DNA from: Halovenus rubra | GTDB taxonomy: Archaea > Halobacteriota > Halobacteria > Halobacteriales > Haloarculaceae | NCBI RefSeq assembly: GCF_026586665.1 | Contig: NZ_JAODIY010000009.1 | Coordinates: forward strand, 186,001 to 250,000 | DNA length: 64,000 nucleotides | Direction of reading: 5' to 3' | Part shown: positions 38,176 to 61,746 of the stretch, one piece after another | Position numbering within the stretch: position 1 is the first letter of the stretch | How the letters are laid out: each line of letters opens with the position of its first letter | Notes under the pieces: generated by a model | Told to the model about the DNA's origin: nothing | Databases searched by the model: none | What the model saw: the letters and a program-made list of their open reading frames with translations, nothing else | Program-made: the position numbers and the translations under genes

Positions 38176-38261
38176 CATTTCTATTTATATACTTGCACCC
38201 CAAGCACTTATACTCCCGGGGTTGTTACTATTGGGTAGACGCAGTGGACACGCGGCCTGGA

Positions 38262-38320: not shown

Positions 38321-38405
38321 TGGTACCGCGGGTTCACCTGACGATGATGTGCGGATGCGAGTCGGATCGACTCTCCAAATCAATCGATGCAGTCCGCGAG
38401 TACCA

Positions 38406-38669: not shown

Positions 38670-41600
38670 ACGACGACCAACAGGACACCGGTGACGACGG
38701 TGTTGTTAACGTGCACGCGGAGAACATCCCACAGATCCTGAAAGACCACGACCACTGGTTACTGTGGGACTCATCGAACGACACGCCACGCCGCCCGCAC
38801 TGGAAGGGAGACTTCAGTATCTCCTACAACGACCCGGATGCGTGGCACACGTTCGAGGAAGCCATTGAAGCAGCGGAGTCGAATCCCAGCTGGGGAGTCG
38901 GGTTCGTGACCACGGACACCCCGGTGTCAGTTATCGATCTTGACGGCTGCCGGCGGACTGACGGCGAGTTCTTCGCGGAGAACTTCCGCTGGGAATGGTG
39001 GGTTCCGGGATCGTTCGACAAGGAGATTGCGGAGTACTACAAGGAACTCAGTCCATCCAAGACCGGGGTGCACCTCCCAACGATCGGGTTCGACGTGCCG
39101 GAGTGGTGGACAGACAAGTCGTTCGAAGACGAAGACCATGAAGGCGTTGACGTGTTGGATAACAAGTTCTGTACGGTGACAGGGGCGTGCGACGGTGACC
39201 TCCCGGTCGTTGACGTGTCCGACGGCGACGACCAGTGGCTGCGGACCGCCCTCGCAGACTTACACGAGACGATTACGGGCGAGAACCCGCGGACCGGTCC
39301 CGAAGGTCCGTCGGACGGCGAGTACACGCCTGGTGACGAGTGGCTGCAGCCTGCAGACGTTCAGGGAGCGCTCAGTCACATAAATTCAGACGTCGGGTAC
39401 CCGGAGTGGCGGAATATTGGGTTCGCTGTTGCGGAGTACTTCCGGCGCGTGGACGACAACCTGGAGGACGACGGGTTCGACGTCGCGTTGGAGACGTTCG
39501 AAGATTGGTCGCAGACCGGTGAAAAGTGGGATCGGGAGGCTGAGCAGAACGCGTTCAACATCATCAAATCCGGGTTCGAATCTGACGCCGAGAACGATTC
39601 GCACGTCACGATCGGGACGCTCCTCCACGTAGCGGACCGGAACGGCTGGGAGATGCCCGACAAGGACGCGCGGTTGGCAGAGCAGTGCGTGGACGACTTC
39701 ACTGATCGTTTCCTCCCGGTCGCTACCCGTGATCCCGAGGAGGACGAAACGCCGACCGAAGAGGAAGTGAACGCGCTGACCGATGCGATCGCGGACTTAG
39801 ACGAGGAGACGTACGAGGACCGCGTTGAGGAAATTGTCAAGCGTGTCGGTCGTAGCCGTGAACGCGTGGACGGTCACCGTGAACTCGCAACGGAATACGA
39901 CTACGGCGACCTTGTCAATGAGGACGGCCAGTTGATGCGTGTGACGTGTACGACGTTCGGGTGGACGTTCACGAAGCCAGTGTTGTCGTTCGAGTTCGAC
40001 GTGGACTCGATCCTTGACCTGCCTGATCAGCAGGGTCGTTCGAGCATCGTGAAGATTAACCCGCCAGCTGAGTCCGAACCGGAGTTCGAGTTGGACGTTC
40101 CCCCGAAGGTGTTCAACGACGTCCGCCGGTTCAAAGACGAGATCCTGTCGCGCGTGTACTCAACGACGATTGAGGACGACCGGTCGCACAGCGAGGTGCT
40201 GGACTCCATTCGGCACTGGATTGCCGAGCAGGACGTCCCAACACGGTCAGCGCAGTACGAGATGGGCCTCAACGACGACGGAACCGAGTTCGTAACGCCC
40301 GCCGGGTCAATCACCCCGGGAGGGTGGACTGACGACCCGGACGCGGTACACATCGAGCGCGGGAGCAAGTCGAACGCGACCGTACGATCGTTCGAAGCGG
40401 ACCCGGGTGAACACGACGACATCGACACGGACGCTGTCGCGGAGATGATCGAGCTCATCGCCCAGTCCCGGCTCCAGAATCGCCTCACACCGATCCTTGG
40501 GTGGTTCTACGCCGCCCCACACCGCCAGCGAATCTTCGACGTCAGCGCGACGTTCAACCCGCTCGCAGTCGTCGGTCGCAGCGGTGCCGGAAAGACGGCG
40601 ACGTTGGCAACCCTCAATCAAATGTGGGGGATGGGAACAGAACCACAGTCGGTTGATTCGACGAAACACGCAGTTCTCACCGGATTCGCCGCCTCACGTG
40701 GGGTGCCAGTGTGGTTCGACGAATACCGCCCGGAGAAGAGCGCAGACTACGCCATCGACCGGTTCCACGGATACTACAAGAAGGCCGCGACGGGTGGCGT
40801 CGTTCCGAAGGGGAACCATTCGATGGGGACTGACGACTGGCACCTCCGCTCGCCCGTTGTCGTGTCTGGGGAGTCGGAAATCCGGTCGAACGCCGAACGT
40901 CGGCGAACTGTCAACGTCACAGTCACGGACACGCCGACCGAAGACGCCGAGATGCAGCGGGCGTTCAAGTCCCTCGTTGGTGACGTGACGAAGGATGATG
41001 ACGGGACTCTGCAGTTCCCGGACCGTGACGACTTGTACGATCTACAGAAGCACGCTGTTGCGTACTACAGTTGGGTTGCAGACATAGGCGAGGACGAGTT
41101 CCGCGAGGCGTGGTTCGATGCCCGCAAGCGCGTGGCGGAGTTCCTCGATAAGCACGAGGACTTAGACCCCGGTGACACGGAGATCCAGGCGCTGCAGACT
41201 GTCGTGTTCGGACACGAGCAGATGATCGCGTTCGCCAACGCGATGGGCGCAGACCTGTCGGTCCTTCCCGGTGAGGACGCGCTTGAGGATGCGCTCGCGC
41301 ACGTCGCTGACATTGAAGGTGACGGTCGGCAGCCGCACGAGCACGAGTTCTTCTCGCTCGCGTCGCGCGCCGCTGCAGCAGGCTACCTGGAGGAAGACAC
41401 GGATTACCGTGTTGTTCACCAGGGTGAGCCGAACGAGGAACTCCGGGTGAACATCACCCGAGCGTTCGACAAGGTCAGCAAGTTCGCCCGTGACCACGAC
41501 TTGAACGTGGACTTGCTGCAGTCCGCGCAGGACTACAAGACGCGGTTCCGTGACATGGAGGATGATGATACATGGGTCGTGACGACGTCGCAGAACACGC

Positions 41601-42406
41601 CACCCATCAGTCGCTGCACGGGCATCGACATGGGGCGCGCGGTAGAGGACATCGCTGGGTTCGCGCGGGGGTCCTTCGTTGGTGTTGGTGACGTGGACGA
41701 TGACGGTGAATCTGTTAACGATGACAGCGACAGTGACGGTGATGGGCCGACCCCGCTCGGTGCGATCGGGCAGGTAGACCACAACTACACGTCGGTCACG
41801 GTCAAAGTCGTTGACTGGGAAGATACCCCTGTTGAAGTGTCTGAAGCGGGCGGCCCGGTCACAGCGGGCTCAGTCGTTGATTCGCTCGGTCGGTGTGACG
41901 TCGTCAGGTTCGACGGGGGCCCGGACGCGGAGCCGAGCGGGTACAAACATATGGAACCCGGTGAGACGGTCCGCATTGAGAATGTGAAGGTTGACGAGTA
42001 CGACGGCGCGACGCAGCTGGTGCTCGATGCTGGGACAACCATCACTCCGATCCAGCAGGGTGTTGGATGGACTGAAGGTGAGGAACCTGCCGACGGACAG
42101 GCGACGATAGATGATGCGTCAGAAGGTGGTGAGGGCGCGCGTGGGCGCGCTCGCGCTGACGGTGGTGCCAATGAGAGTGATGGCCTGTCCATCGATACAG
42201 ACGTGCAGCGTGACCGCATAATGGGCCTCAAGGACATCATCGAGACGGTCGAAGACGAGCATGATGCCGGCGCGCCGATCGCGGAAGTCCGCGAGCAGGC
42301 TGTTGAAGCAGGGTTGGGCGAGGACAAGTTCGGCCACGAACTGTTGAAGTTGAAGAAGCAAGGCAAGGTCTACGAGCCGTCAGAAGACCGGTTGCGGGCG
42401 GTCTAA
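38663..42406 (+). CDS. Primase-polymerase/helicase fusion with MCM-type C-terminal winged helix
   Basis: This 1247-residue replication protein begins with a prim-pol-like domain (HWLLWDSSNDTPRRP ... GVGFVTTDTPVSVIDLDGC, with the D-x-D-like pair, and later LSPSKTGVHLPTIGF, about 20-180). A PriCT-like segment follows (WRNIGFAVAEYFRRVDDN ... GEKWDREAEQNAFNIIKSG, about 245-300). Then comes a P-loop helicase with Walker A GRSGAGKTA (about 636-644) and Walker B VPVWFDEYRP (about 683-692). An OB-like domain lies at about 1035-1130. The last 70 residues (RIMGLKDIIETVEDEHDAGAPIAEV ... KQGKVYEPSEDRL) strongly resemble the C-terminal winged helix of archaeal MCM. The TTG start at 38663 is supported by GGGGGTGA six bases upstream. 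Confidence 0.85.
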   Translation: MVDDDQQDTGDDGVVNVHAENIPQILKDHDHWLLWDSSNDTPRRPHWKGDFSISYNDPDAWHTFEEAIEAAESNPSWGVGFVTTDTPVSVIDLDGCRRTDGEFFAENFRWEWWVPGSFDKEIAEYYKELSPSKTGVHLPTIGFDVPEWWTDKSFEDEDHEGVDVLDNKFCTVTGACDGDLPVVDVSDGDDQWLRTALADLHETITGENPRTGPEGPSDGEYTPGDEWLQPADVQGALSHINSDVGYPEWRNIGFAVAEYFRRVDDNLEDDGFDVALETFEDWSQTGEKWDREAEQNAFNIIKSGFESDAENDSHVTIGTLLHVADRNGWEMPDKDARLAEQCVDDFTDRFLPVATRDPEEDETPTEEEVNALTDAIADLDEETYEDRVEEIVKRVGRSRERVDGHRELATEYDYGDLVNEDGQLMRVTCTTFGWTFTKPVLSFEFDVDSILDLPDQQGRSSIVKINPPAESEPEFELDVPPKVFNDVRRFKDEILSRVYSTTIEDDRSHSEVLDSIRHWIAEQDVPTRSAQYEMGLNDDGTEFVTPAGSITPGGWTDDPDAVHIERGSKSNATVRSFEADPGEHDDIDTDAVAEMIELIAQSRLQNRLTPILGWFYAAPHRQRIFDVSATFNPLAVVGRSGAGKTATLATLNQMWGMGTEPQSVDSTKHAVLTGFAASRGVPVWFDEYRPEKSADYAIDRFHGYYKKAATGGVVPKGNHSMGTDDWHLRSPVVVSGESEIRSNAERRRTVNVTVTDTPTEDAEMQRAFKSLVGDVTKDDDGTLQFPDRDDLYDLQKHAVAYYSWVADIGEDEFREAWFDARKRVAEFLDKHEDLDPGDTEIQALQTVVFGHEQMIAFANAMGADLSVLPGEDALEDALAHVADIEGDGRQPHEHEFFSLASRAAAAGYLEEDTDYRVVHQGEPNEELRVNITRAFDKVSKFARDHDLNVDLLQSAQDYKTRFRDMEDDDTWVVTTSQNTPPISRCTGIDMGRAVEDIAGFARGSFVGVGDVDDDGESVNDDSDSDGDGPTPLGAIGQVDHNYTSVTVKVVDWEDTPVEVSEAGGPVTAGSVVDSLGRCDVVRFDGGPDAEPSGYKHMEPGETVRIENVKVDEYDGATQLVLDAGTTITPIQQGVGWTEGEEPADGQATIDDASEGGEGARGRARADGGANESDGLSIDTDVQRDRIMGLKDIIETVEDEHDAGAPIAEVREQAVEAGLGEDKFGHELLKLKKQGKVYEPSEDRLRAV

Positions 42407-45130: not shown

Positions 45131-45166
45131 AGTCTAAGTAAAGACTATATTGTTGCGCTGAACAAT
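45131..45166 (+). promoter_or_regulatory. Promoter/operator of the defence operon
   Basis: Two dyads flank a TATA-like CTATAT (45145-45150): AGTCT...AGACT (45131-45146) and ATTGTT-GCGCTG-AACAAT (45149-45166). The ATG of the first gene is at 45181, about 33 bp after the TATA element. The AbrB-like product of that gene is the obvious candidate to bind here. Confidence 0.55.
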
Positions 45167-45180
45167 CCTTGGTATCACTA

Positions 45181-45372
45181 ATGACCCGGAAGCAGATCGG
45201 TCGTAACACTGGAAATTCAGGCCGAGTCAACGTCTCCGGGTCTGAATTGGAAGAACTTGGCATCGAAATCGGCGATGAAGTTGACGTGGATGTCGCTGAT
45301 ACCAAAGAGATCGCGCACGCCATCATCGATAGCAAAGATTCCGACGAATTCCTCATCGTTACCCCTGCCTAA
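45181..45372 (+). CDS. AbrB/SpoVT-fold DNA-binding protein
   Basis: This 63-residue protein (MTRKQIGRNTGNSGRVNVSG, then SELEELGIEIGDEVDVDVAD) has the swapped-hairpin beta-barrel layout of AbrB-type regulators, often antitoxins or autorepressors. It is the first gene of the operon, and only three bases separate it from the methylase gene, so autoregulation of the restriction system is a reasonable inference. The ATG at 45181 is the natural start. Confidence 0.85.
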   Translation: MTRKQIGRNTGNSGRVNVSGSELEELGIEIGDEVDVDVADTKEIAHAIIDSKDSDEFLIVTPA

Positions 45373-45375
45373 CGA

Positions 45376-48300
45376 ATGCAAACAGCACTCACCTACCGTA
45401 CGAACCGTGACCTGTTCTCGAACTACTACCTAGACGAACACCTCCCCGAGACCGAAGAATGGGACGATGTCAGCGACGAAGAGCTCCAGGAGGCCTATGA
45501 TGACGTTATGGACCTCTGGGAGCGTGAGAAGGACACCGCGCCGAAGCGGAATGAGTCCCAGCTCGAAGAGAAGTTCATCCGGCCGATGTTCCGGAAACTG
45601 GGGATCCCATTCGAGGTGGAGGAGAGCACTGACCGAACTCAGCGCCGACCGGACTACGGGTTCTTTGAGACCGATGATGCTGCACGAGATGCCTTCGAAC
45701 GCCGCGATGAGGGCGGGGACTTCTACAAGAATTCCGTCGCTGTTGCGGACGCGAAACGATGGGGTCGTCCCCTCGACACTCGTGGGAGCGGTGAACACGA
45801 ACGTGACTTCGAGAACCCCAGTTACCAGATCCACGTCTACCTGCAGGAAGTGGATGCCGCACAGTGGGCTGTCCTAACCGACGGGAAGAAATGGCGGCTG
45901 TACTACGGCCCGACCAGCCACCGCCTCGACTCCTACTACGAAGTGGATCTGCCGACGATTCTGGAGAAGGGCGATCTTGAGGATTTCAAATACTTCTACC
46001 TCTTCTTCCGCCACGAGGCATTCCTCGAAGACACCAGCGGTGACTGTTTCCTGGACGACGTCTACGGCGAGTCGAACGTCTTCGCCCAAGAGTTGGGGGA
46101 AGACCTGCAGGACAACATCTACGAGGCGATCAAGATCCTCTCTGAGGGATACCTCCAGTACCCCGAGAACGATCTTGACGAAGACGATCTTGATCTGATC
46201 CACGACAGCTCGCTCATCTACCTCTACCGGCTCATCTTCGTTCTGTACGCTGAAGCGGAGGGCCGCGAACTGCTGGACACGAGCAACGAAATTTACGAGC
46301 AGTCCTACAGTCTCAACTCTCTCAAACAGGAGGTCGCCGAAGAACTCGATAGTGGCGACCCGAAATACCGTGACTGGCAAGACAATCTTCAGGCCCGTCT
46401 GGACGAACTGTTCACCCTCATCGACAAGGGCAGCAAGTCACGCGGCATCCCTGAGGAAGACCTCTACATTCCGGCGTACAACGGTGGGCTGTTCCGGACG
46501 GACCCAGACGCCGACGACAGTAAGGAGGCGAAGTTCCTCGCCGATCACGACGTCGGCGACGCCTACCTAGCCAAGGTTGTTGAACTCCTCACGCGGAGCA
46601 AGAACAGCAACGGCGGTGGAAAGATCTTCGTCGATTACTCCTCGCTTGATGTTCGCCACCTCGGGAGTATCTACGAAGGGCTGCTGGAGTACCAGCTCAA
46701 CGTCGCCGATGAACCGCTGGCACTGGATGATGGCGAGTACGTGAGCGCCGGCGATGGCGACGACGTCGTCGTGCAGGAAGGTGAGGTACACCTGACGACA
46801 GGCAGTGGTGAGCGAAAGGCCACTGGTTCGTACTACACCCCCGAATACGTCGTTGAGTACATCGTCGAAGACACGCTCGAACCGCTCGTTGACGACATCC
46901 GGATGGATCTTGCTGGCCGGAGTGCCCGAGGAGAAGACCGTGGTTTCGCAGAGGAATTCGCGGAACGCATATTCGACCTGAAGATCCTTGATCCGGCGAT
47001 GGGGAGTGGTCACTTCCTCACGAGCGCCATTGACTACCTGGCCCGCGAAATCATCGATGCCCAGGAGAAGCAGGCCGCACAGGAGGGAATTGAAACCGTT
47101 GACGAAGAGCACGACATCAACTGGGCTCGTCGGCAGGTCGCTCAGCGCTGTATCTACGGGGTTGATCTGAATCCACTGGCTGTTGAACTCGCCAAAGTCT
47201 CGCTCTGGCTCCGAACGCTCGCGGCCGAACAACCGCTTGCGTTCTTGGACCACCATCTTAAAACCGGGAACTCGCTAGTCGGGAGTGATATTGAGACAGT
47301 GTTGGATAACAGCGAATCTAACACCGACGAGGGGCAGCTCACTCTACAACAGTCATTCGATAGAACTCGGCGGCAGGCCCTTGAGCACGTTACAGACCAG
47401 TTTGAAGAACTACTTGCTATCGATAACGAGACATTAGACGATGTCAAGGAAATGGAATCTGTGTATGAGGGGGTTCGTGGTGATCCGCTATACCAGCACC
47501 TTATTTCTATGGCGAATGTCCATACTGCTGAGAAATTTGGGCTTGATGTCCCTGAGGACGCGTATAAACGTATGGCAACGGCGCTCAGGAACAACTCATG
47601 GGACGAAGTTGAGGAACAAGATTGGTACCGTTCGGCTCAACAGATAGCCGAGGATGAGCATTTCTTTCACTGGGAACTGGAGTTTCCGATCGCGTTCTAC
47701 GAACAAGACGGGTCCAGAAAAAGTGATGATGGGTTCGATGCTGTAATTGGAAACCCACCGTATATTAAAATCCAGAACCTTCGCCAGACGGCCCCTGAAT
47801 TCGCAGATTATGCGACCCGTGAATATGAGGTCGCTTCGGGCCGGTTCGATATTTATTCCCTGTTTGTTGAGCGTGGTGTCTCACTCACGAATGATAGGAG
47901 ACTATCATATATCCTACCTAACAAATTCTTCGAGTCCGGTGCTGGTCAATCGCTCAGACAATTCTTGGTATCAAACGGTCTTCTTAGTGAAATCGCAGAC
48001 TTTGGACAACATCAAGTCTTTGAGGGTGTAACGACGTACACATGCATTCTATCGCTAAATTCGGGGGGGCAAACGTTCGGATATGCAGAAATAAAAGAAG
48101 CTAGTAAGAGTAATCTGCAAACTGCACCCAGAGTAGATATTGAAATTGATGAGCTTAGCGATGAAAAGTGGGCACTCACGGGCCCAGAAGAGAGAAAAGT
48201 TCTAGATAAATTAAACCAATCTGGGAGATCTATCGGGGATCGGTCACGACATATTTCAGAGGGTATTGTATCAGGAGATAATGATATTCTATTTGTGGAA

Positions 48301-49641
48301 ATCCTCTCACAGGATGGTGATACGGTTGAGATTGAATGCCCTGAAAACAACAACCAATATACACTTGAATCAGGATTGGTAAAACCGTTACTTCGGGGTG
48401 ATTTTATTGAACGGTTTAGAAAACCTGAACCTAATGAAGGAGTCATTTACCCATATGAAATCAAGGGCGGTGAATCGGAACTTATCCCTGAAGACAGACT
48501 TAGCTCCGAATTCCCAAAGACCTACAGCTATCTATCCGAGTTTGAGTCGCGGCTGCGTAACCGGGGATCGGAGAATATGGAATACCCCGCATGGTATGCA
48601 CTTTGGTGCCCCCGAGAAAAACAATTATTCGAGGCTCAGAAGCTCCTAGTGCCCGATGTTTGTCAGCGTAGCGAGTTCACTCTAGACCGTGATGGGGGTA
48701 TTTATCTCCCCAACTCCGCTTACGGAATCGTTCCGAAAAGAAAGAATCAACGTCACCTAGAATACCTGTTGGCTGTTCTTAATAGCACTCCCACCTGGTT
48801 CTTTATTTATCACACAAGTACGGTTCTACGTGGGGATTTCCGGCGGTTTATGACCTCATATCTTTCCCCATTACCTATTCCTGATGCTTCACCAGAAACG
48901 GAGCGGGAGACTGAGCCAGAATTTGAAAGAACAATTAAGGAAGACGATGTGCCTCCCGGAGAGAGACTTTCTGATCTGTCACATATCACCTTAGATCTCC
49001 ACGAACAGCATGAATCTCTTAATCTACATCTCCTTGATTATCTTGGCATCCCAAGCGATGAGCTCCCCGATTCAATTGAGGGTGACAAGCTTGAAGATTT
49101 GCAGATGCCAGTTGCTGGCGTCGCAGATACGCCACTCACTAAGACAGCTGAAGACTTTGATGGCCTCCGTGTGGAGGGAGTTTCATTTGAGGATGATGGG
49201 GGGCGACTGGTGATGAATGTCGATATTAGCTATAAGGTTGATGAAGATGACCAGCGCGAAACAGACGCATGGGACCGGCTTGTTGAAGAGGAGTTCGAAA
49301 CCTACGAAGCGATGGCATTTGTTGGTCTCTCAGAGGCGGAAGAAACGCTCATTCGCAACTTCATTCCAGTTGTCGTTAACAAGGCAGATGGGTTTGCTAG
49401 CTTCCGGCAGAATGCCACAAAGACCAACTCATCGTTAGACCGGATGAAGGATTTAGTGCTCCCTGATATTGGGAAGGTCCGTGATGGGCTGGATCAGTAT
49501 ATTGAGGTGAGGGCCAAAGCTGACGAACTTGAAAAGAAGATCAAAAGGACCGATCAGCTCATCGACGAAATCGTATACGACCTTTACGGACTAACCGACG
49601 AGGAAATCGAGATTGTCGAATCGGCAGTGCAGGATGACTGA
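45376..49641 (+). CDS. PglX/Eco57I-like restriction-modification protein (nuclease + N6-adenine methylase)
   Basis: This 1421-residue single-chain enzyme has a PD-(D/E)xK-type nuclease domain near the N-terminus (RRPDYGFF with Asp93; VADAKRW with Asp125 and Lys127) and a helical connector. A gamma-class N6-adenine methylase follows (motif I DPAMGSGHF at about 538; motif IV GNPPYI at about 792). The C-terminal 500 residues hold the specificity and coiled-coil region. The layout is that of type IIG/type I-SP enzymes and of PglX/DrmMI in BREX and DISARM. Composition changes along the gene: about 47.3-49.2 kb, roughly the specificity half, is clearly AT-richer. A run of seven G lies at 48063-48069. 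The helicase start overlaps its last codons. Confidence 0.92.
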   Translation: MQTALTYRTNRDLFSNYYLDEHLPETEEWDDVSDEELQEAYDDVMDLWEREKDTAPKRNESQLEEKFIRPMFRKLGIPFEVEESTDRTQRRPDYGFFETDDAARDAFERRDEGGDFYKNSVAVADAKRWGRPLDTRGSGEHERDFENPSYQIHVYLQEVDAAQWAVLTDGKKWRLYYGPTSHRLDSYYEVDLPTILEKGDLEDFKYFYLFFRHEAFLEDTSGDCFLDDVYGESNVFAQELGEDLQDNIYEAIKILSEGYLQYPENDLDEDDLDLIHDSSLIYLYRLIFVLYAEAEGRELLDTSNEIYEQSYSLNSLKQEVAEELDSGDPKYRDWQDNLQARLDELFTLIDKGSKSRGIPEEDLYIPAYNGGLFRTDPDADDSKEAKFLADHDVGDAYLAKVVELLTRSKNSNGGGKIFVDYSSLDVRHLGSIYEGLLEYQLNVADEPLALDDGEYVSAGDGDDVVVQEGEVHLTTGSGERKATGSYYTPEYVVEYIVEDTLEPLVDDIRMDLAGRSARGEDRGFAEEFAERIFDLKILDPAMGSGHFLTSAIDYLAREIIDAQEKQAAQEGIETVDEEHDINWARRQVAQRCIYGVDLNPLAVELAKVSLWLRTLAAEQPLAFLDHHLKTGNSLVGSDIETVLDNSESNTDEGQLTLQQSFDRTRRQALEHVTDQFEELLAIDNETLDDVKEMESVYEGVRGDPLYQHLISMANVHTAEKFGLDVPEDAYKRMATALRNNSWDEVEEQDWYRSAQQIAEDEHFFHWELEFPIAFYEQDGSRKSDDGFDAVIGNPPYIKIQNLRQTAPEFADYATREYEVASGRFDIYSLFVERGVSLTNDRRLSYILPNKFFESGAGQSLRQFLVSNGLLSEIADFGQHQVFEGVTTYTCILSLNSGGQTFGYAEIKEASKSNLQTAPRVDIEIDELSDEKWALTGPEERKVLDKLNQSGRSIGDRSRHISEGIVSGDNDILFVEILSQDGDTVEIECPENNNQYTLESGLVKPLLRGDFIERFRKPEPNEGVIYPYEIKGGESELIPEDRLSSEFPKTYSYLSEFESRLRNRGSENMEYPAWYALWCPREKQLFEAQKLLVPDVCQRSEFTLDRDGGIYLPNSAYGIVPKRKNQRHLEYLLAVLNSTPTWFFIYHTSTVLRGDFRRFMTSYLSPLPIPDASPETERETEPEFERTIKEDDVPPGERLSDLSHITLDLHEQHESLNLHLLDYLGIPSDELPDSIEGDKLEDLQMPVAGVADTPLTKTAEDFDGLRVEGVSFEDDGGRLVMNVDISYKVDEDDQRETDAWDRLVEEEFETYEAMAFVGLSEAEETLIRNFIPVVVNKADGFASFRQNATKTNSSLDRMKDLVLPDIGKVRDGLDQYIEVRAKADELEKKIKRTDQLIDEIVYDLYGLTDEEIEIVESAVQDD

Positions 49642-52600
49642 CTTCGAGGTTGGCGACCACGTCAAGTTCGCTGGCGGCCAGGGCGAAATCACGAAGATCG
49701 AAGAGCGCCCGAACGGAGGCCAACTCCTCCACGTCTACACCACGGAGGGGGAACTCCGGAAGCTCCCAAGTGGCCTGCCCCACATTGAGCGGAGCGACTC
49801 TATCGCTGACCGGCTCGCAGCCCGACAGATCGATTCGCCCATCCACCACGACCTTCGGGAGCGTACGACCCGCCTCGACCTCGCCTATCGATACGACCGG
49901 TTCCTGTCGCTGACGAACAACCGTATCGAGATCGAACCGTACCAGGTTCAGGCCGCTTACGAAATCCTGAACTCGTACGACCACCGCTACCTCATCGGCG
50001 ACGAAGTCGGCCTCGGGAAGACCATCGAAGCCGGCATCGTTATTGAGGAACTCATCGCGCGCGGGCGTGCCCAGCGGGTACTCATTGTCGCACCAGCACC
50101 ACTCACGGTGCAGTGGCAAGAAGAAATGCGCGAGAAGTTCGACCGAAACTTCGTCATTTACGACCGTGAAACCGTAGAAACCCACCGGCAGTCCCACCCA
50201 AACCAGAACGTCTGGGAGCAAGAGGACCTCATCATCACCTCGATCGATTTCGCTAAGCAAACGAACGACGACCCTGAGTCGGACAGAGTCTCGGTCCGTG
50301 ATGCCCTGGATAACCTCAACGCATCTTGGGACGTCGCCGTCTTTGACGAAGCGCACCACTTGACCGCTCGCCGGGGAAGCGACGACTCCATTGAACGGAC
50401 CCAGCGTTACACTGTCGGTGAAGCCGTCGCCGAAAACTCCGACGCGCTCCTGTTGATGACCGGAACGCCTCACAAAGGGAAGTCCGACCAGTTCTACTTC
50501 CTCGTGAGTTTGCTTGATCCATATCGCTTTAGCCACGAGTCACAGATCAATCCCGACGCACTGGATGATCTGATGATTCGCCGGCTGAAGGACGACATGC
50601 ACGACACCGACGGGACGCGAATGTTCCCCGAGAAGAACATCGAAGCGCTGGGTGTGGATATGTCCCGGGCTGAGCGGAAGCTCTACGACGACGTCACTGA
50701 GTACATCCGCGAGTACTACAACCTCGCTCAACAGGAGGAGAACCAGGCCGCGGGGTTCACGATGGTCATTTACCAGAAGCGGCTGGTTTCCAGCATCTAC
50801 GCGATTCAGAAGTCTCTGGAGAACCGAATGCGCGCCATCCAGAACGACGCTGTTGCCGAAGATCTTCCCGACGACGTTCAGGAGCTGATTCCCCGGTATA
50901 GCACCGAACCTGAGACACTGACCGACACCGAGCGTGAGCGCGTCGAAGAGGCGCTGGAAACGGTCACAGTCACGCTGAACCAATCACAGATACAGGAAGA
51001 GCTTGACCGGGTGAAGCAACTCTGGCAGCAGGCCAAGAGCATTGAGACCGATTCGAAGGCCCAGATGCTCAAGCAGTTTGTCGGTCGGATCCTGTCCAAC
51101 GACCCTGAGGAGAAAATACTCATCTTCACCGAGTACACGGACACGCTCGAATACCTCCGAGACAAGGTGTTCGACGACCACGATATTGCCCAAGTCTATG
51201 GAGACTTAGACCAAGATCGACGGCGGGAGGAAATGGAGAAGTTCGAGAATGAAGCCAACCTGATGCTCGCCACCGACGCGGCACAAGAAGGTCTCAACCT
51301 CCAGTTCGCCCACATTATGGTCAACTATGACCTCCCGTGGAACCCGATCCGCATCGACCAACGAATGGGTCGTCTTCACCGCTACGGGCAGGAACGGACC
51401 GTAGAGATCCGGAACCTGTTCTTCAAGAACACCCGGGAGAGCGAAATTCTGAATCTGCTGGTTGAGAAGACGAACCAAATCGAATCCGACCTCGGAATGC
51501 GTTCCGACGTACTCGGCCGCGTTCTGGAAGACGTTGATCTCGATGACACCATTATGGCCGCCATCGCGGAGAACCGGCCGACCGACGAAATCGTGGGAGA
51601 TATCGAGAAGACAATCGAAGAGCGAAAGGAGGCACTTCAAACGGTTGAGAACGAGTTTCTGATCCGCGATCGATTTGATCTCTCTGACGAAGACGAAGAG
51701 ATATTGGAGGTCATCGAACGCAGTCAACACGGCGACGTCAGCGAAGACGACATTGAGGTGCTAGTCCGGGAGTTCTTCGACGAATTCGGCGGTAATATCC
51801 GCGGTGTCCGTCCCGGCCCTGCTCGGTCAGGCGGTGACGTCTTCCAACTTGGCGTGCCAGATGTACTCTCTGGTGATCAGGTCAGTAGTCAGTATGACCG
51901 AGCAACGTTTACCCGCGAGGTGGCGATGGAACAGGACGATGTCGATTTCATCGCTCTTGACCACCCGCTCGTTCAATCACTCATCGAATTCTGCCTTGAC
52001 TCGACCCGTATTCAGGGACAGGTCGCTGTCAAAGTCGCAGAAGATGGTGAGCCAGGACCCGGTGTTCTCTTCAACTACCGTCTTGGGTACGTGTCTGGTG
52101 CCGGTGAAGCGGTAACCGAGAAGCTGGTCCCATTGTATGTTACTTTAGGTGGGGGTGTTTCGACGACGAAGCCCGAGATCGTTGATACTCTCCCCCAAGA
52201 AGAGGTCTCCACCGATGAAACGCTGGATCAGTTGGCGTCACAGGTATCGGACTTACACGAGATTGCCGAGATGGAGGCGTGGGAACAGGTCGAGTCGTTT
52301 GCTGAGGAAGCGAGAGAAGAACGGGAACGCGAAATGGAGATTAAGCGCCAGCATGCTGAACGTCACTTCGAAGAGGAGATCAGCGAGTGGGAAGAGCGAT
52401 TAGAGACGTACGAACAGCAGGATGAGCGAGGAAAGGATATGTCGGCACCCATCGGAAACGCGAAACGCCAGTTGGAGTCTCTTCGACGAGAGCGTGACGA
52501 AGAATTAGCTCGATTAGAGGAGGAGAAGCACGTCACCCCAGAAGAACCGCAGTTGGTGACTGCATCCTTCGTCCTCGGCAGTCCTCCGGGTGAGCGATGA
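49634..52600 (+). CDS. RapA/SNF2-type helicase of the defence operon (DrmD-like)
   Basis: This 988-residue superfamily 2 ATPase opens with a small Tudor/KOW-like domain (MTDFEVGDHVKFAGGQGEITKIEE). Motif I is GDEVGLGKTIEAG (about 121-133), motif II FDEAHH, and motif III LLMTGTPHKG. The C-terminal lobe has ATDAAQEGLNLQFAHI and RIDQRMGRLHRYGQ. The last 150 residues form a highly charged coiled coil. RapA-type enzymes translocate on double-stranded DNA; beside a PglX-like methylase this matches DrmD of class 1 DISARM. The ATG at 49634 overlaps the methylase stop by 8 bases. Confidence 0.92.
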   Translation: MTDFEVGDHVKFAGGQGEITKIEERPNGGQLLHVYTTEGELRKLPSGLPHIERSDSIADRLAARQIDSPIHHDLRERTTRLDLAYRYDRFLSLTNNRIEIEPYQVQAAYEILNSYDHRYLIGDEVGLGKTIEAGIVIEELIARGRAQRVLIVAPAPLTVQWQEEMREKFDRNFVIYDRETVETHRQSHPNQNVWEQEDLIITSIDFAKQTNDDPESDRVSVRDALDNLNASWDVAVFDEAHHLTARRGSDDSIERTQRYTVGEAVAENSDALLLMTGTPHKGKSDQFYFLVSLLDPYRFSHESQINPDALDDLMIRRLKDDMHDTDGTRMFPEKNIEALGVDMSRAERKLYDDVTEYIREYYNLAQQEENQAAGFTMVIYQKRLVSSIYAIQKSLENRMRAIQNDAVAEDLPDDVQELIPRYSTEPETLTDTERERVEEALETVTVTLNQSQIQEELDRVKQLWQQAKSIETDSKAQMLKQFVGRILSNDPEEKILIFTEYTDTLEYLRDKVFDDHDIAQVYGDLDQDRRREEMEKFENEANLMLATDAAQEGLNLQFAHIMVNYDLPWNPIRIDQRMGRLHRYGQERTVEIRNLFFKNTRESEILNLLVEKTNQIESDLGMRSDVLGRVLEDVDLDDTIMAAIAENRPTDEIVGDIEKTIEERKEALQTVENEFLIRDRFDLSDEDEEILEVIERSQHGDVSEDDIEVLVREFFDEFGGNIRGVRPGPARSGGDVFQLGVPDVLSGDQVSSQYDRATFTREVAMEQDDVDFIALDHPLVQSLIEFCLDSTRIQGQVAVKVAEDGEPGPGVLFNYRLGYVSGAGEAVTEKLVPLYVTLGGGVSTTKPEIVDTLPQEEVSTDETLDQLASQVSDLHEIAEMEAWEQVESFAEEAREEREREMEIKRQHAERHFEEEISEWEERLETYEQQDERGKDMSAPIGNAKRQLESLRRERDEELARLEEEKHVTPEEPQLVTASFVLGSPPGER

Positions 52601-53142
52601 CGGTCGAAATAGCGAACATCGTCGGATCCGGCGATCTTGGGGTGGAGCTGGATCTCGAAGCCCTGGAAGATGATCTCTCTACACCGTACCTGGAGTACGA
52701 CCCGTCGAATTACCACGGTCTTTACGTTCGTCTCGAAGAAGGTGGGCCGCTCATCACGGTGTATCGGAGCGGGAAGTACATCATCAGCGGCTGTCCCAGT
52801 GAGGAGACACTACGCGAGACGAACGATGGATTCCTGAGAGCCCTCGCAGAGTTGGGCATTGTAGACGAAGCTCAACAGACAGGATTCACTGTCCAGAACG
52901 TGGTCTGTACTGCGATGCTCGATGAGATGGTTTCTCTGGATGCTCTCTCAATCGGGTTGGGATTGGAAGTAACGGAGTATGAGCCGGAGCAGTTCCCGGG
53001 TCTGGTTTATCGGCCCGAGGGCATCGGTGCTGTACTGCTGGTGTTCGCTAACGGGAAGCTGGTGATTACAGGTGCGAAGGATGTCGAGACCGCCGAAGTA
53101 GCGTACAATCACCTCCAGTCGAAGGTACAGGAACTAGTGTAG
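52597..53142 (+). CDS. Divergent TATA-box-binding protein (TBP) paralogue
   Basis: This 181-residue protein shows both repeats of the TBP saddle. Repeat 1 runs from IANIVGSGDLGVELDLEALEDDL to YRSGKYIISGCPS; repeat 2 contains VQNVVCTAMLDE, LSIGLGLEVTEYEPEQFPGL and LVFANGKLVITGAK. Repeat 2 is close to normal archaeal TBP. In repeat 1 the phenylalanines expected at the DNA-kinking positions read as tyrosine (NYHGLYVR, TVYRSGK). The ATG overlaps the helicase stop (ATGA), so it is part of the operon. It could be a dedicated initiation factor or a DNA-bending subunit; both are inference. Confidence 0.9.
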   Translation: MTVEIANIVGSGDLGVELDLEALEDDLSTPYLEYDPSNYHGLYVRLEEGGPLITVYRSGKYIISGCPSEETLRETNDGFLRALAELGIVDEAQQTGFTVQNVVCTAMLDEMVSLDALSIGLGLEVTEYEPEQFPGLVYRPEGIGAVLLVFANGKLVITGAKDVETAEVAYNHLQSKVQELV

Positions 53143-53161: not shown

Positions 53162-54961
53162 TCAGCTGAAGGTGCTGATGATGTGGTCTCGAAGCATCTC
53201 CTCGCGTCGCTCGATGAATTCGGGGAAGTTCTCTAGTTCGTACAGACGCTCGTCAGTCGGGATGTGATGGCGGTCGTAGTATTGGTCACTCCGCGTTGAA
53301 ATCCACTCATCGAACGCTTGGGTCCCCTTGGACTGGTTCTCCTCGATTAACTGGAGGTTGGCAACGTGATCGCGCAGGGAGGCGTACCGCTCGGCCTTGC
53401 TGGGGTCGAATCCGTAGTTCTCGATGAGATTGTCTTTTTCCAGGAGACTCCGCGGGAAGATGTGGTCGATTTCGTATGAATCGTCGTGGGCAGGGTCAGG
53501 GTAGTAGAGGACCGACAAGAGCAGGTAGATCTTCGTGCTGTTGTAGTCCGTTTCCTCGAACAGGTCTTCTACGATTTCCTGGCTGAAGCCAACGGCTTTC
53601 CCACGCGTCCTGATTTCACGCTGAATCCGTTCTAGTGGGAACTGACTATCGTCCGCCTCTTTGATGGCATCACGTGCGTCCTCGATGATCTGGTCTGGCC
53701 GGGAGTTGAAGTTGCTGTTGAGGAGCGCAGAGCAGAGCCATTCGAGGATTCGGGGTCGAACCTGCACGCCGAGTTGAGAGTCCGTCGTCAGGGAGGGATT
53801 CTCGTTGTGGTAGAAGTAGAAGACTAACGGGATGAGCGCATTCCGGCTCGTCAGGCTTCGGCCGGTGATACCGAAGTCGCTGATCAGATCTACGGTGGAC
53901 TCAATCGCATCTTGAACAACTCCGTTCGCCCAGATCTCTTTCATCAACGCCAGGTTCTCGTGTGTGAACGTGCGGATCTGGTACTCGGCGGAGAGGTCAG
54001 CGACAACGAGGAGGGATTTCAGGACGAAGTCGCTACCGAAGTCGTAGCCCTCGTCCACATACGCCTGATTAAGGTTCCCGACGAAGTTGTTGATCTCTTC
54101 CTTTGCGTCAATGGGGTTCTCTTCATCTGAGCCCCAGTACGACGTGGCAATAGAGAGGAGGATTTCAGACTTGCTGAGTTGCGTACCACCTTCGTTCGCC
54201 CGGACGAAGATGTCCAGAATTCGCTCGTTATCCTGGTTTCCTTCCTCGTAGTAGTTCACGATGTCTCGGGCGTGAACAGCGTTGTAGAGGGTGGTGAGGT
54301 TCTTGAGGATGTAGTGTTCCTGTGCATCGGAGACCTCCTCTAACTCGGACGCGATTTCGTTCGCCCGGGTCATCGCCTTCTCTAGCGTGTCGATCTCCAG
54401 AATGTCGCCGACACGGAACCAGTATTCCTCACGAGACTGTGTCGGATCGGGCTCCTTGAATCTGAAGTCGTATCGGAGCTTCAGATGGTCCTCCGTCTGG
54501 TTGTTGGGGTTCGAGAGCAAGTTGAGATACAGCTGCTTACGCGTCCAGGCGTCGGGATTCTTCCGTTGCCGGTACTTCTGCTTCTCAACGTATGTTCCTT
54601 GGAGCCCGATGTAGAAGGAGGAGAGGCGCTGTTGGCCGTCAACGACGAGTGAAACGGAGTCCGGGATTTGCTCGTATTCGGGAACCTTTGGATTTCGATG
54701 GTGAACATTGTCGAAATCGTCTGGGTAGATGCTATCCTCGATGTGATTTCGGACGAAGTAGTACTTGATTTGGTTGTCTGCGAACTCTCCGTTGAGGTTC
54801 CAGAAAATGAACGACCCGATAGGGTACTCGCGGAGAACGGAATCGAAGAGCTGAATGATCTGTTCGGTATCCCAGACGAACTCCCGCTGGATTGCCGGCA
54901 GAAAGATGGACTCGTTTATGTCCGGTAGAACTTGCTTGATTGTCCGAGACTGGTAACCCAT
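53162..54961 (-). CDS. DUF262-DUF1524 (GmrSD-like) nuclease
   Basis: This 599-residue protein has an N-terminal DUF262 domain (LPAIQREFVWDTEQIIQLFDS, then VVDGQQRLSSFY, the DGQQR nucleotide-binding motif at 108-112). It has a C-terminal DUF1524 HNH-type domain (YEIDHIFPRSLL at about 492-503, HVANLQLIEENQSKG). The fusion is that of type IV restriction enzymes such as GmrSD, which cut modified DNA, and of the SspE nuclease. It converges with the TBP-like gene across a 19-bp gap and is transcribed from its own promoter. It may complement the modification system or be a separate defence module. Confidence 0.9.
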   Translation of the reverse strand: MGYQSRTIKQVLPDINESIFLPAIQREFVWDTEQIIQLFDSVLREYPIGSFIFWNLNGEFADNQIKYYFVRNHIEDSIYPDDFDNVHHRNPKVPEYEQIPDSVSLVVDGQQRLSSFYIGLQGTYVEKQKYRQRKNPDAWTRKQLYLNLLSNPNNQTEDHLKLRYDFRFKEPDPTQSREEYWFRVGDILEIDTLEKAMTRANEIASELEEVSDAQEHYILKNLTTLYNAVHARDIVNYYEEGNQDNERILDIFVRANEGGTQLSKSEILLSIATSYWGSDEENPIDAKEEINNFVGNLNQAYVDEGYDFGSDFVLKSLLVVADLSAEYQIRTFTHENLALMKEIWANGVVQDAIESTVDLISDFGITGRSLTSRNALIPLVFYFYHNENPSLTTDSQLGVQVRPRILEWLCSALLNSNFNSRPDQIIEDARDAIKEADDSQFPLERIQREIRTRGKAVGFSQEIVEDLFEETDYNSTKIYLLLSVLYYPDPAHDDSYEIDHIFPRSLLEKDNLIENYGFDPSKAERYASLRDHVANLQLIEENQSKGTQAFDEWISTRSDQYYDRHHIPTDERLYELENFPEFIERREEMLRDHIISTFS

Positions 54962-57309: not shown

Positions 57310-57382
57310 CTGCTACTTCACTCGTCAATTCCCTTCTTTCGAACACGAAAAGGACATTACGGTGGGTCAACCGTCGAACAGT

Positions 57383-59080
57383 ATGCCTACTGTCAAGGAG
57401 TACAGGAATGAGAAAGGGTACTACATTAGATCCAACATCGATGGTCGCTACGTTACTCTTCAACTGAGCCCCGAAGCCGAAGGTTTATTCTCCGATCTCG
57501 GATTCCGCGGGGATGATCAGGTTTCATGGCAGTTTCTCAAGCCGCTCTGTGATAGCGGCCACGCCTACACTAACAACTCGGGGACAGCAGTAGAAACAAA
57601 GGACATCAATACGGAGGTCTCATTCTCGTCCGGAAAGCTATCTCTCGAAAAGAAGCGCCGACTGGAGGAGTTCCTTGATCAACATACGCCCGACGAGTCG
57701 GCATCTGAAACGGGCCAGCCGTCAACGAATGGTGATGAGAGGACTTCCAGCTTAGATAGGATTGATGCGTCGAAGCGGGGATTCATCGAAAGGTGGAGCC
57801 CGTCTGATGACGAGTATGAGGCAACGCTAAACCGGATTGCTAGGGCGGACGATATCGATGGCATCCTGAAATCTATTGCCCATCATTCTACAGAGCATCC
57901 GATTTTGGTAAATCGATTCCGGGTGAGCTCTCAAGAGGTTCCCACATATTCGTTCGATACCGATGGAATAGCATGGACAGTGCATGATTTCCGAACAGTT
58001 GAAAAGGTGGGCACCGATGCAGAACTGTTTATTGACATTCGGCCCGGAACGAGTCACTCTCAGTCGATTACGATAGAACCTGAGACTACTGAATGGCATA
58101 CTACGGGAGAACAGTTCAAGAGAGAGCAGATTAACGAGTTCCTGACGGTTGCTCCTGATTTGTTGTACTATCTTCACCACCTGGTGAGCAGTCCGAGTGT
58201 CAGTCCACGCGATCTCATCTCAAACCCAACTGCTGACATCACCTCAGAGGATGCGTCACGTCTTGAATCATTAGAGGATTTAGGAGCAGTAGACCCAAAC
58301 GAATACAGCCGCGCTTTGGGCACTATCCTCTCGTTAGGGAATAAGGGATACGGTAGGATACGGGGACACACCGGCCACACCTTCACGTTCTCAGAAGAGG
58401 AATCTAAGGATGACAACATTGAGGCGGGTGATGTTGTAACGTTCGAAGTAAAGCCCCACAGAGGGTCCATTTATGCTAAGAACATCGGTAAAGAGGAGAC
58501 CGGAATACCGAGTTCGGGAATAGTACGAAACTGGCCTGAGTGGCGCGACCGATCCCTCTCTTGGCTCCGGAATAATTGGACAAAGAGGCGAGCGAAACGA
58601 GACACGAACGAGAAATCTATTTCCATCAGTAGTTCTGATGAGGAAGCCGATTACCAGTGTATTGAGGTGCAAATCGACTCTCTCACTTTCTACCTCGCTA
58701 GTTCGGTCAACGAAACGAGTGATGTTCTAGACGAAGCTGTCCGAACGCTACTCAAGCAAACAATCGATGGTGGAAGAACTCCTCCCAGTGCCCCTGTTGC
58801 CACTGATGAGGTCGAAATCTCACTACCGGTGAATCTACTATCGATGATCGACTCTGTAGTGGGAACTTCGTCAGTTTATGAGACCCGGGACCAATTCTTC
58901 AGTGCTGCCATACAGAATCACTTCAATGAAGGAGATCAGGTTGAATTGACGGTGCGCGTCCCTCGTAGTTATCATCACGCCACGCAACAACTGGCAGAGG
59001 AATACGGGATATCCACTCCAGAGTTCATGCGAGAGGCGCTTGAAGATGCCCTAGGAACCGAACTTCGTCGTACACAGTAG
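57383..59080 (+). CDS. Large protein with cold-shock-like domain and three C-terminal RHH-like units
   Basis: In this 565-residue protein the N-terminal 60 residues form a small beta-rich domain (MPTVKEYRNEKGYYIRSNID GRYVTLQLSPEAEGLFSDLG). The middle is uncharacterised. At about 310-365 is LGNKGYGRIRGHTGHTFTFS followed by IEAGDVVTFEVKPHRGSIYA, which has the G-Y-G-x-I and 'GDxVxFE' pattern of a cold-shock OB fold. The last 130 residues contain three successive strand-helix-helix units beginning IEVQIDS, VEISLPV and VELTVRV. It lies 125 bp upstream of an MrfA-type helicase. It is likely a nucleic-acid-binding component; no known family. The ATG at 57383 is chosen over a GTG seven codons upstream. 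Confidence 0.75.
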   Translation: MPTVKEYRNEKGYYIRSNIDGRYVTLQLSPEAEGLFSDLGFRGDDQVSWQFLKPLCDSGHAYTNNSGTAVETKDINTEVSFSSGKLSLEKKRRLEEFLDQHTPDESASETGQPSTNGDERTSSLDRIDASKRGFIERWSPSDDEYEATLNRIARADDIDGILKSIAHHSTEHPILVNRFRVSSQEVPTYSFDTDGIAWTVHDFRTVEKVGTDAELFIDIRPGTSHSQSITIEPETTEWHTTGEQFKREQINEFLTVAPDLLYYLHHLVSSPSVSPRDLISNPTADITSEDASRLESLEDLGAVDPNEYSRALGTILSLGNKGYGRIRGHTGHTFTFSEEESKDDNIEAGDVVTFEVKPHRGSIYAKNIGKEETGIPSSGIVRNWPEWRDRSLSWLRNNWTKRRAKRDTNEKSISISSSDEEADYQCIEVQIDSLTFYLASSVNETSDVLDEAVRTLLKQTIDGGRTPPSAPVATDEVEISLPVNLLSMIDSVVGTSSVYETRDQFFSAAIQNHFNEGDQVELTVRVPRSYHHATQQLAEEYGISTPEFMREALEDALGTELRRTQ

Positions 59081-59205
59081 CTTCGTGCCGGCCGGAGATT
59101 CATCTAAGCTTTGTTCTTTTCATTGTTTGGAAGTGTATGTCAAGGGGAGCCAACGTACCCTTGAATCGCAAAAATTCACAAGTATCAATCACCAAGAACC
59201 GGCAG

Positions 59206-61746
59206 ATGAAGGATCGACCTGGAATCAGGGATACCGTAGAGTGGTTGCGTGGTCGAGGTTATTACGAAGGTCAAATCGCTCATAAGCAGGTCGTGAGAGG
59301 TCAATCTGCGGAGACAGCCGATCTCGCTGTTTCTGCCCCTCTGTCGTCTGCACTACAACAGCAGGGAATCACGAGTTTGTATTCACATCAGGCGAACGCT
59401 ATTGAGGCGGTTCAGTCCGAGTCGAACGTTGTTGTGGCCACACCGACAGCATCCGGCAAAACACTCACGTACGTCGTACCCGGCATTGAGCGAGCGATCG
59501 AAAACGCAGGGAAAACACTCTATATCGCACCGTATCGTGCGCTCATCAATGATCAAGCCGATACTTTCGAGGCGTTTGATGATGAGTTGGGATTCGGTGC
59601 CTCGGTTGATATTGGCGTACAAACTGGGAAAACATCAAGGAGCGCTCGTAGGGAGATTAGACAGACACAGCCCGATATTCTTCTTACAACCATCGACCAG
59701 CTCCATCTTAGTCTCCTCCCGTATGCTCATGGGAAAAATCACTGGCGGTGGTTGTTCCAGCAATTGGATACCGTAGTTATCGATGAGGTCCATATGTACC
59801 GTGGGGTCTTTGGAAGCCATGCGTCGCTGATCTTCCGACGGCTCAATCGGTTGTGTGATTACTATGATTCGTCGCCGCAGTACATCTGCTGTTCAGCGAC
59901 GATCGGAAATCCTGTAGAGCATGCTGCAACCGTCACGGGACGGCAGGAATCCACGTTCGAACTCGTGGATGATGACGGCAGTGCGTCGGGGGATCGACAC
60001 TGGCTGTTTTGGAATCCGCCACTCAAGCAGGACACTGACGAGGATCAGTCAATTCCGGATCCAGCTGTCAGTTCCGTCGGAACTGTTCGTGCTGGCCACG
60101 ACGAACATCCACCCGAGAAGATTGCAGGGGCCATCGATACCGAACCGAGTTCGACGACTGCGACACAATCTGAAACAAGCGAATCCTCGGATTCCCCTGA
60201 TGAGATTGCGCTTCCCTCTCATCAGGAAGTAGTCGGTGGAGAACGACGCTCACACCACGTTGAATCGGTGCGTTTGTTCTGTGATCTCGTAACCAGAGGA
60301 TATCAGACGCTGGTCTTCACCGCTGCCAGACAGGGAACAGAGCAATATGTGGATTGGGCAGACAGAATGCTCCGTGACAGGGGACAACATGATCTCGCAG
60401 ACAGCACTCACGCATATCATGCCGCGCTGAATACGGATCGTCGCCTCGAACTTGAAGAGGAACTTCGTAGCGGGGATGCTCGTGGTGTCTGGAGTACGAA
60501 TGCGCTTGAACTCGGGATCGATCTCGGGACACTCGATGTTGTTTTGCTTGATGGGTACCCCGGAACATCAATGAGTACGTTCCAACGGGCAGGCCGAGCT
60601 GGGCGTGGCGAAGACTCTTGTCTCGTTGTTCTTGTTGGAGCTGATGATCCACTTGATCAGTATACGATTCGGGATCCAGACGAACTGTTTGAGGGAGGTG
60701 CTGAACAGGCTGCAGTCAACCCTTCTAATGATTCAATTCGTCCTGATCACGTCGTCTGTGCAGCAAGTGATCACTTCTTATCGCCACGTGACGAGGTCTA
60801 TTTCGGTGCCGACCTACCGGATATCGTCACAGAAGCAGAAGTGAACGATCGCCTTCGCCGTGTAGAGAGTGGTGATCGGATTCAGTGGCGCGCCACGAAC
60901 TCGGACGTGCAATGGAATACGAATATTCGGGCGATCGATGACCGCGAAATCGATCTTATCGACCGAAACCGTGACGAGAAGCTCGCATCCCTTGAATTTG
61001 GTGCTGCGGTACGGGATGCACATCCGGATGCAATCTATCGTCACCAGAAACAGACGTACCAAGTAGTCGAATTAGACCTCGAATCTGACCGAGCACTGCT
61101 TGAATCGACATCGACAGCAGCGTACACCCGAGCACTCCGAGAAAAGTCCATTACTATCGAAGACACGTATGAGAGTTCGTCCGCTGAAACGCATGAGATG
61201 ACCGTACAAGCTACACTAGGAGAATTTACAGTGGAGGATACGGTTACAGGGTACTTGCGGTACAGCGACCCCAGCGATGACACCCCTCAGGAGTGTGAGT
61301 TTGAGGAGCCGCTGGAGTCACAATCGATCAAGACAACAGGCCTGTTCATCACCGTCCCAGATGATGTTGAAGCTATGATTGTTGATCAGGCGGAGTCACA
61401 AGAGGAATATCTGAGTGCTCTCCACGCTATCGAACATGCATTGATATCGCTGTTCCCTATGGAGGTTTTGTGCGACCGAGGCGACATTGGTGGTCTTTCG
61501 ACGCCAAGCCATGGCCAGACGTCTGGCGGGACGGTTTTCATTCACGATGGTCATCCTGGAGGTGCTGGACTTACACGTCAGGCTTTCGAGCAACTCGATG
61601 ATCTTCTTGAGAAGACGCTCACGTTGCTTCAGGACTGTGGCTGTCAAGATGGGTGCCCGTCCTGTATTCACTCGCCCCACTGTGGGAATGCGAACCGAAG
61701 CCTCAACAAGCAGTTAGCAATACAGCTATTGGAAGAGCTACAATAG
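59206..61746 (+). CDS. MrfA/Hrq1-type DEAD/DEAH helicase with DUF1998-like C-terminus
   Basis: This superfamily 2 helicase of about 846 residues has motif I TPTASGKT (79-86), motif II DEVH (about 191), motif III CSAT, motif V STNALELGIDLGTLD and motif VI QRAGRAGRGED. After the RecA lobes comes a winged/beta domain. A C-terminal module ends HDGHPGGAGLTRQAF, then a four-cysteine cluster CGCQDGCPSC ... HCGN (about 811-828), diagnostic of the MrfA/Hrq1 group that repairs cross-linked DNA. It is not a DrmA or DrmB, though DUF1998 relates them. The ATG at 59206 is preferred because family members start near RDTVEWLRGRGYYEGQI; an ATG at 59137 is also possible. Confidence 0.9.
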   Translation: MKDRPGIRDTVEWLRGRGYYEGQIAHKQVVRGQSAETADLAVSAPLSSALQQQGITSLYSHQANAIEAVQSESNVVVATPTASGKTLTYVVPGIERAIENAGKTLYIAPYRALINDQADTFEAFDDELGFGASVDIGVQTGKTSRSARREIRQTQPDILLTTIDQLHLSLLPYAHGKNHWRWLFQQLDTVVIDEVHMYRGVFGSHASLIFRRLNRLCDYYDSSPQYICCSATIGNPVEHAATVTGRQESTFELVDDDGSASGDRHWLFWNPPLKQDTDEDQSIPDPAVSSVGTVRAGHDEHPPEKIAGAIDTEPSSTTATQSETSESSDSPDEIALPSHQEVVGGERRSHHVESVRLFCDLVTRGYQTLVFTAARQGTEQYVDWADRMLRDRGQHDLADSTHAYHAALNTDRRLELEEELRSGDARGVWSTNALELGIDLGTLDVVLLDGYPGTSMSTFQRAGRAGRGEDSCLVVLVGADDPLDQYTIRDPDELFEGGAEQAAVNPSNDSIRPDHVVCAASDHFLSPRDEVYFGADLPDIVTEAEVNDRLRRVESGDRIQWRATNSDVQWNTNIRAIDDREIDLIDRNRDEKLASLEFGAAVRDAHPDAIYRHQKQTYQVVELDLESDRALLESTSTAAYTRALREKSITIEDTYESSSAETHEMTVQATLGEFTVEDTVTGYLRYSDPSDDTPQECEFEEPLESQSIKTTGLFITVPDDVEAMIVDQAESQEEYLSALHAIEHALISLFPMEVLCDRGDIGGLSTPSHGQTSGGTVFIHDGHPGGAGLTRQAFEQLDDLLEKTLTLLQDCGCQDGCPSCIHSPHCGNANRSLNKQLAIQLLEELQ

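Follow-up and report, generated by a model that had tools for sequence, protein, structure and literature searches.

The 64,000-nucleotide stretch of Halovenus rubra DNA analysed here (contig NZ_JAODIY010000009.1, positions 186,001 to 250,000; hereafter the window) contains a restriction-modification (R-M) operon at 45181-53142 whose last gene encodes a TATA-binding protein (TBP). This protein belongs to a distinct clade of haloarchaeal TBPs encoded beside R-M genes of several kinds. The pattern is broader than the operon itself, lies well above chance and is apparently undescribed: no earlier report of an R-M-linked archaeal TBP clade was found in the open-licence papers searched, and published overviews of R-M systems in archaea and haloarchaea (PMC10609329, PMC6471742) make no mention of TBP. 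It suggests that R-M systems of haloarchaea carry a private promoter-reading factor.

The TBP and the helicase encoded directly before it were each searched in 391 class-level haloarchaeal genomes, and 140 neighbourhoods were retrieved and annotated with local profiles. Loci were selected by similarity to the query, and the 34 controls are those that ranked directly after them, their neighbours not being known beforehand. In a tree of 130 TBPs, an inner R-M clade (n = 64, support 0.907) is separate from an ordinary clade (n = 34), with supports of 0.994 for the housekeeping clade and 1.0 for the helicase-linked clade. Such a tree had been suggested in a preliminary description of this DNA, and the operon-borne TBP does group apart from ordinary duplicated TBPs; the source genome has two other TBP genes, both in the ordinary clade. 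The view of the protein as an ordinary duplicate was hence rejected, its clade being separate from housekeeping and generic paralogues alike. Within the inner clade, 59 of the 64 TBP genes have R-M genes no more than 1.5 kb away, and for 40 of them the distance is at most 60 bp, compared with 0/34 of the ordinary TBPs (Fisher 2e-21), which led us to reject an accidental neighbourhood. Counted from the enzymes, a clade TBP lies within 10 kb of HsdM at no fewer than 17 of about 152 loci, where about 0.2 would be expected.

Regarding the partners, the preliminary description had placed the arrangement in a methylase/helicase operon, and to this the association is not confined, since it includes type I, type IIG and BREX systems. 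The nearest TBP relatives without the operon's helicase adjoin type I genes (HsdM, HsdS, HsdR), BREX genes (BrxB, BrxC, PglZ, PglX) or type IIG/PglX methylases alone. Members initially labelled 'none' proved to adjoin an MjaI-type endonuclease and methylase or a NotI-type endonuclease, these being neighbours of outlying members of the clade, and further ones adjoin a DUF1156/DUF499 pair or a UvrD-PD(D/E)xK protein. Forty TBP genes are co-directional with and downstream of an R-M gene and 12 are divergent; at loci L166 and L180 the TBP gene directly precedes the endonuclease gene, and at L163, too, it comes ahead of it. At three helicase loci (L076, L077 and L115) the TBP nests in the tree among type-I-linked TBPs, which suggests an exchange of TBPs between system types, as would suit a portable regulator. 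Arrangements in named genomes include methylase-helicase-TBP-GmrSD in Halorubrum laminariae R60, methylase-TBP-helicase-TBP as well as TBP-hsdMSR-TBP in Halobellus clavatus, BREX-TBP on a plasmid of Halorarius halobius and methylase-TBP in Natrinema hispanicum; Natrinema altunense is a further carrier that can be cultured, as are Halobellus clavatus and Halorubrum laminariae.

The window's protein has a complete two-repeat TBP fold, as the preliminary description had read from the sequence: PF00352 is matched above its curated cut-off (144.9 bits, two repeats), and the structural model (pLDDT 90.9) aligns in Foldseek with archaeal and eukaryotic TBPs at TM 0.80-0.89. The altered residues noted in repeat 1 were confirmed and, moreover, found to be fixed across the clade. 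When the 64 R-M TBPs were compared with the 34 ordinary haloarchaeal TBPs in yeast numbering, identity to ordinary TBPs was 33% in repeat 1 and 52% in repeat 2, repeat 1 being the lower in 64/64. The changes in repeat 1 are F99Y (64/64), L114T (63/64), F116Y (61/64) and V122 to Ile (58/64), and the repeat 2 equivalents of N159, V161, F190, L205, F207, E186 and E188 are unchanged throughout the R-M clade. In yeast TBP, F99, L114, F116, V122, N159, V161, F190, L205 and F207 are established DNA contacts, and E186 and E188 contacts with TFIIB (TFB in archaea); L205, the homologous position in repeat 2, is reportedly changed in a yeast altered-specificity mutant. TBP pairs are under strong purifying selection, and because their dN/dS is 0.05-0.13 we regard the R-M TBP as retained for a function. 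In named GTDB genomes, which overlap partly in species with the first set, TBPs of the Tyr/Thr/Tyr (Y/T/Y) type adjoin R-M genes in 10/13 cases and ordinary, FLF-type TBPs in 0/72. The three repeat 1 residues provide a signature by which TBPs of this kind can be found, and possibly also neighbouring restriction systems that have so far gone unnoticed. Natural TBPs in which one half is canonical and the other retuned should be useful for studying how TBP reads the TATA box.

Several unusual TBPs were also seen. IMG/VR contains two haloarchaeal contigs that are related to each other, resemble a virus or provirus and carry TBPs: in L287 a Y/T/Y-type TBP accompanies a methylase, and the TBP of L288 has Gly/Ile/Ala at the signature positions; further viral contigs (L289-L297) bear TBP genes. 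TBPs of 274 and 277 amino acids, with sequence added beside the domain and strongly diverged repeats, are encoded at L134 (8377-9201) and L175 (10921-11754).

Among the roles that the preliminary description had offered, the best fit is that of a dedicated initiation factor, given an invariant TFB-docking half and a retuned other DNA-binding half; for a sensor of TBP capture by a virus, the evidence points neither way. We hence favour, at odds slightly better than even (about 0.55), the reading that the protein acts as a dedicated initiation factor or as a regulator, which would recruit TFB and RNA polymerase to altered TATA sites and control R-M genes; TFB recruitment, altered site preference, target promoters and controller role are all predicted. 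The unchanged repeat 2 would bind the upstream half of the TATA box and dock the ordinary TFB and the RNA polymerase of the host, and the altered repeat 1 would read a changed downstream half-site, so that the protein would serve or control a limited set of promoters, probably the R-M cassette's own. The R-M TBP might in this way tune or delay restriction genes, in a role like that of C (controller) proteins in bacteria, and a mobile R-M cassette would no longer depend fully on the TBPs of its host. More tentatively, and at a likelihood we put a little short of even, several unrelated haloarchaeal restriction and BREX types may share a split-specificity TBP that recruits TFB to dedicated promoters, as a layer of R-M control made from general initiation machinery and not from a helix-turn-helix (HTH) regulator. 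All that the host systems have in common is to be restriction or modification systems; no helicase, methylase or nuclease runs through all of them, and a role in expression therefore fits better than one within a single enzyme complex.

Two comparisons help to place this proposed role. Like the R-M TBP, bacterial C proteins (PMC12707154) are small DNA-binding accessory proteins whose genes are co-directional or divergent and accompany several R-M types, and the placement of the TBP gene (divergent, in the operon or before the endonuclease) resembles that of controller genes; C proteins are, however, HTH dimers, whereas the R-M TBP is a basal initiation factor with a TBP fold, so the likeness would be one of role, by analogy. 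The prediction is that R-M control in archaea would rely on dedicated initiation factors, a task that falls to C proteins in bacteria. Regarding haloarchaeal TBPs in general, expansions of the tbpA-F type, which have been interpreted as serving niche regulons (PMC3404096), also consist of complete two-repeat TBPs, several per genome in many haloarchaea. They are lineage duplications; the R-M clade is instead marked by a fixed repeat 1 signature, R-M neighbours and transfer between families. The TBP surplus of haloarchaea is usually read as environmental regulons, and a large group of these paralogues now gains a restriction or antiviral context.

The operon and its immediate surroundings in the window are as follows:

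45131-45148, + strand: palindromic operator AGTCT-N6-AGACT (AGTCTAAGTAAAGACT), overlapping the TATA-like ACTATAT of the operon promoter
45181-45372, + strand: AbrB/SpoVT-like small protein, operon gene 1 (63 amino acids, open reading frame)
45376-49641, + strand: Eco57I/PglX/DrmMI-like N6-adenine methylase (1421 amino acids; Pfam and PADLOC)
49634-52600, + strand: SNF2 helicase, BrxHII/RapA/DrmD/HmaA-like (988 amino acids from ATG 49634; Pfam Helicase_C/SNF2 and PADLOC)
52597-53142, + strand: R-M-associated TBP, operon gene 4 (181 amino acids; Y39, T54 and Y56 in the first repeat and a canonical second one)
53162-54961, - strand: GmrSD/HEC-05-like restriction protein, convergent neighbour (Pfam and PADLOC)

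Open reading frame calls confirmed the coordinates and the spacing first described, four genes on the + strand with successive gaps of +3, -8 and -4 bp, the TBP gene thus overlapping the helicase gene by 4 bp. Its place as a translationally coupled operon member is recurrent: the TBP gene lies directly 3' of the helicase gene, with a gap of -8 to 0 bp, at 21/34 loci of the helicase's own subfamily, in which two loci have helicase fragments. The search for TBP genes beside a methylase and an SNF2 helicase that had been proposed was thereby positive, and the link holds up as non-accidental, in that relatives of the operon mostly keep the TBP and the protein falls outside the clade of ordinary duplicates. 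Two more loci retain a TBP remnant, of which only about the first 98 bp are left at G128 and which has an internal TGA at G337. The other 11/34 related methylase-helicase loci have neither TBP nor remnant, and because the operon also occurs in this form the TBP is an accessory gene. At L080, L084, L085, L087 and L089 (also L223), methylase and helicase are separated by another, more diverged TBP, which in those first five loci leaves the helicase with a TBP on either side. At the type I locus L217, TBPs are found at both ends.

The coupling to the helicase at 21 loci and the helicase between two TBPs at five are what would be expected if the TBP were a subunit of the restriction machinery, bending or marking DNA to load the methylase, the nuclease or the SNF2 motor, with the helicase perhaps acting on TBP in the manner of Mot1. 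Mot1, an SNF2 ATPase, strips TBP off DNA and binds it through a HEAT domain; it offers a general precedent for an SNF2 motor acting on TBP, and Mot1-TBP structures are among the Foldseek matches. The likeness lies in the pairing of SNF2 motor and TBP, known here as gene adjacency, and the difference in the HEAT domain, which is not among the Pfam matches of the operon's helicase. A role specific to the helicase, including the DNA bending on its behalf that had been suggested earlier, was rejected since TBPs of the same clade accompany type I, type IIG, BREX and, in outlying members, type II systems without this helicase. The subunit explanation more generally is unlikely in our estimate: the enzymes that the clade accompanies (type I, IIG alone, BREX and, for outliers, MjaI/NotI type II) have no common partner, 11 of the 34 related loci do without the TBP, and it would give no reason for the TFB-contact residues to be invariant.

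A precedent that speaks for a subunit is the presence of TBP in the TOTE (TPR-OB-TBP-effector) and TALON conflict systems (PMC12458937). The likeness is that of a TBP gene within a conflict or defence operon; TALON, however, is described from Bacillati and combines TPR-CSD with a NERD nuclease or YprA, whereas the partners of the R-M TBP are classical R-M/BREX enzymes. No TPR-CSD or OB Pfam domains were found in the operon or in its GmrSD neighbour.

The retention of the TFB face alongside a changed DNA half, and the tight association with many defence systems, would also suit an antiviral transcription role, in which the TBP competes for TFB, occupies viral promoters as a dominant-negative factor or replaces a host TBP disabled by a virus. 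We judge this less probable still than a subunit role: no direct evidence speaks for it, and a function independent of the enzymes leaves the operon coupling and the divergent R-M promoters unexplained.

The cassette is mobile between families. TBPs 96-98% identical to that of the window occur in G213 and G065, genomes of other families than the window's genome, cross-family transfer of the cassette takes the GmrSD neighbour along, and in the helicase tree gain and loss of TBP are patchy. It might hence be supposed that TBP paralogues merely pile up in mobile islands rich in R-M genes, and the occurrence of some TBPs as pseudogenes would agree. Such hitch-hiking is strongly disfavoured, and we hold it less probable than any of the explanations above, given that other TBPs are never found beside R-M genes (0/34), that reading frames overlap, that residues are fixed clade-wide and that dN/dS is so low.

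Several observations weigh against a dedicated controller. In some relatives the TBP is lost, truncated or pseudogenised. Its gene stands last in the operon, the usual position of a C gene being first, and its TFB binding and site preference are predicted from residue equivalence. The operon promoter and its AbrB-type palindrome are unchanged in relatives that lack the TBP. Finally, 6-8-mer enrichment yielded no convincing promoter element common to TBP-bearing R-M loci; the best 7-mer, AACTTAT/ATAAGTT, occurs in 7/44 vs 3/406 intergenic regions, which is marginal after correction. L118, L126, L136 and L142 are among the R-M TBP loci at which this motif stands in a divergent or upstream region, and it is a possible lead to the site of the R-M TBP.

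As to the palindrome itself, AGTCTAA..AAGACTATAT was considered as a TBP-specific promoter and rejected: it is equally frequent before operons lacking the TBP and therefore goes with the AbrB-like gene. The operator is near-identical before operons with that gene, TBP present or absent alike, with the exception of the diverged L096, and its pattern occurs as a single copy in the 3.57-Mb genome; it is probably an (autoregulatory) site of the AbrB-like protein. Of the AbrB gene that the preliminary description had placed first in the operon, the 63-amino-acid reading frame stands; a Pfam search with its product at E 0.01 gave no match. The label, given for the look of the protein and the palindromic operator in front, is a fair guess, and conserved relatives lie a few bp 5' of the methylase gene at many loci.

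The identities of the PglX-like methylase and the SNF2 helicase were borne out by Pfam and PADLOC, the best PADLOC models for the operon being DrmMI, BrxHII, HmaA and DrmD. The methylase matches Eco57I (1.3e-39), N6_Mtase and TaqI_C, a specificity domain, and its N-terminal PD-(D/E)xK-like stretch, as read from the sequence, is a probable nuclease. Nucleotide homology of its gene with L067, L068 and L070 is interrupted from 47295 to about 49600, both ends being 82-94% alike, which is consistent with a swapped specificity part. For the helicase, a TTG at 49613 is a possible start instead of ATG 49634. A GmrSD-like neighbour also lies downstream of the cassette at L069, L070, L071 and L207.

The nearest precedents of the R-M TBP clade are TBP in TOTE/TALON and, for the enzymes, ARMADA and DISARM. 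ARMADA (PglX-like, BrxHII-like and YprA; PMC12458937) and class 1 DISARM share with the operon a PglX-like methylase paired with a BrxHII/DrmD-like SNF2 helicase; unlike them, the operon has an AbrB-like protein and a TBP. The drmMI/drmD pair of class 1 DISARM is matched (PADLOC DrmMI 4.7e-99, DrmD 7.4e-121; BrxHII scores better), but this system was rejected since, in line with the preliminary description, no plausible drmA, drmB or drmC was found among the genes scanned around the operon, the one weak DrmA match, at 59137, being a helicase of another type. ARMADA was rejected because a YprA-like helicase is missing from the operon and from related loci: the window does have an MrfA/Hrq1-like helicase 6 kb from the operon, but the related loci retrieved contain none related to it. 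This helicase, which has an MZB domain, follows a 572-amino-acid protein without Pfam match (57362-61746), and neither is conserved near the operon elsewhere. BREX PglZ and BrxC were not among the window genes scanned; they are present beside TBPs at other loci.

Upstream of the operon, the window encodes an integrase and a PriCT_2 primase-like protein (33863-42406), which suggests that the operon sits in or next to an integrated element. Adjoining the integrase (33863-34906), a 134-amino-acid open reading frame on the - strand (33366-33770) gave, in the search of the genome, one weak match to a single TFIIB cyclin fold (24.7 bits) and is a possible one-repeat TFB.

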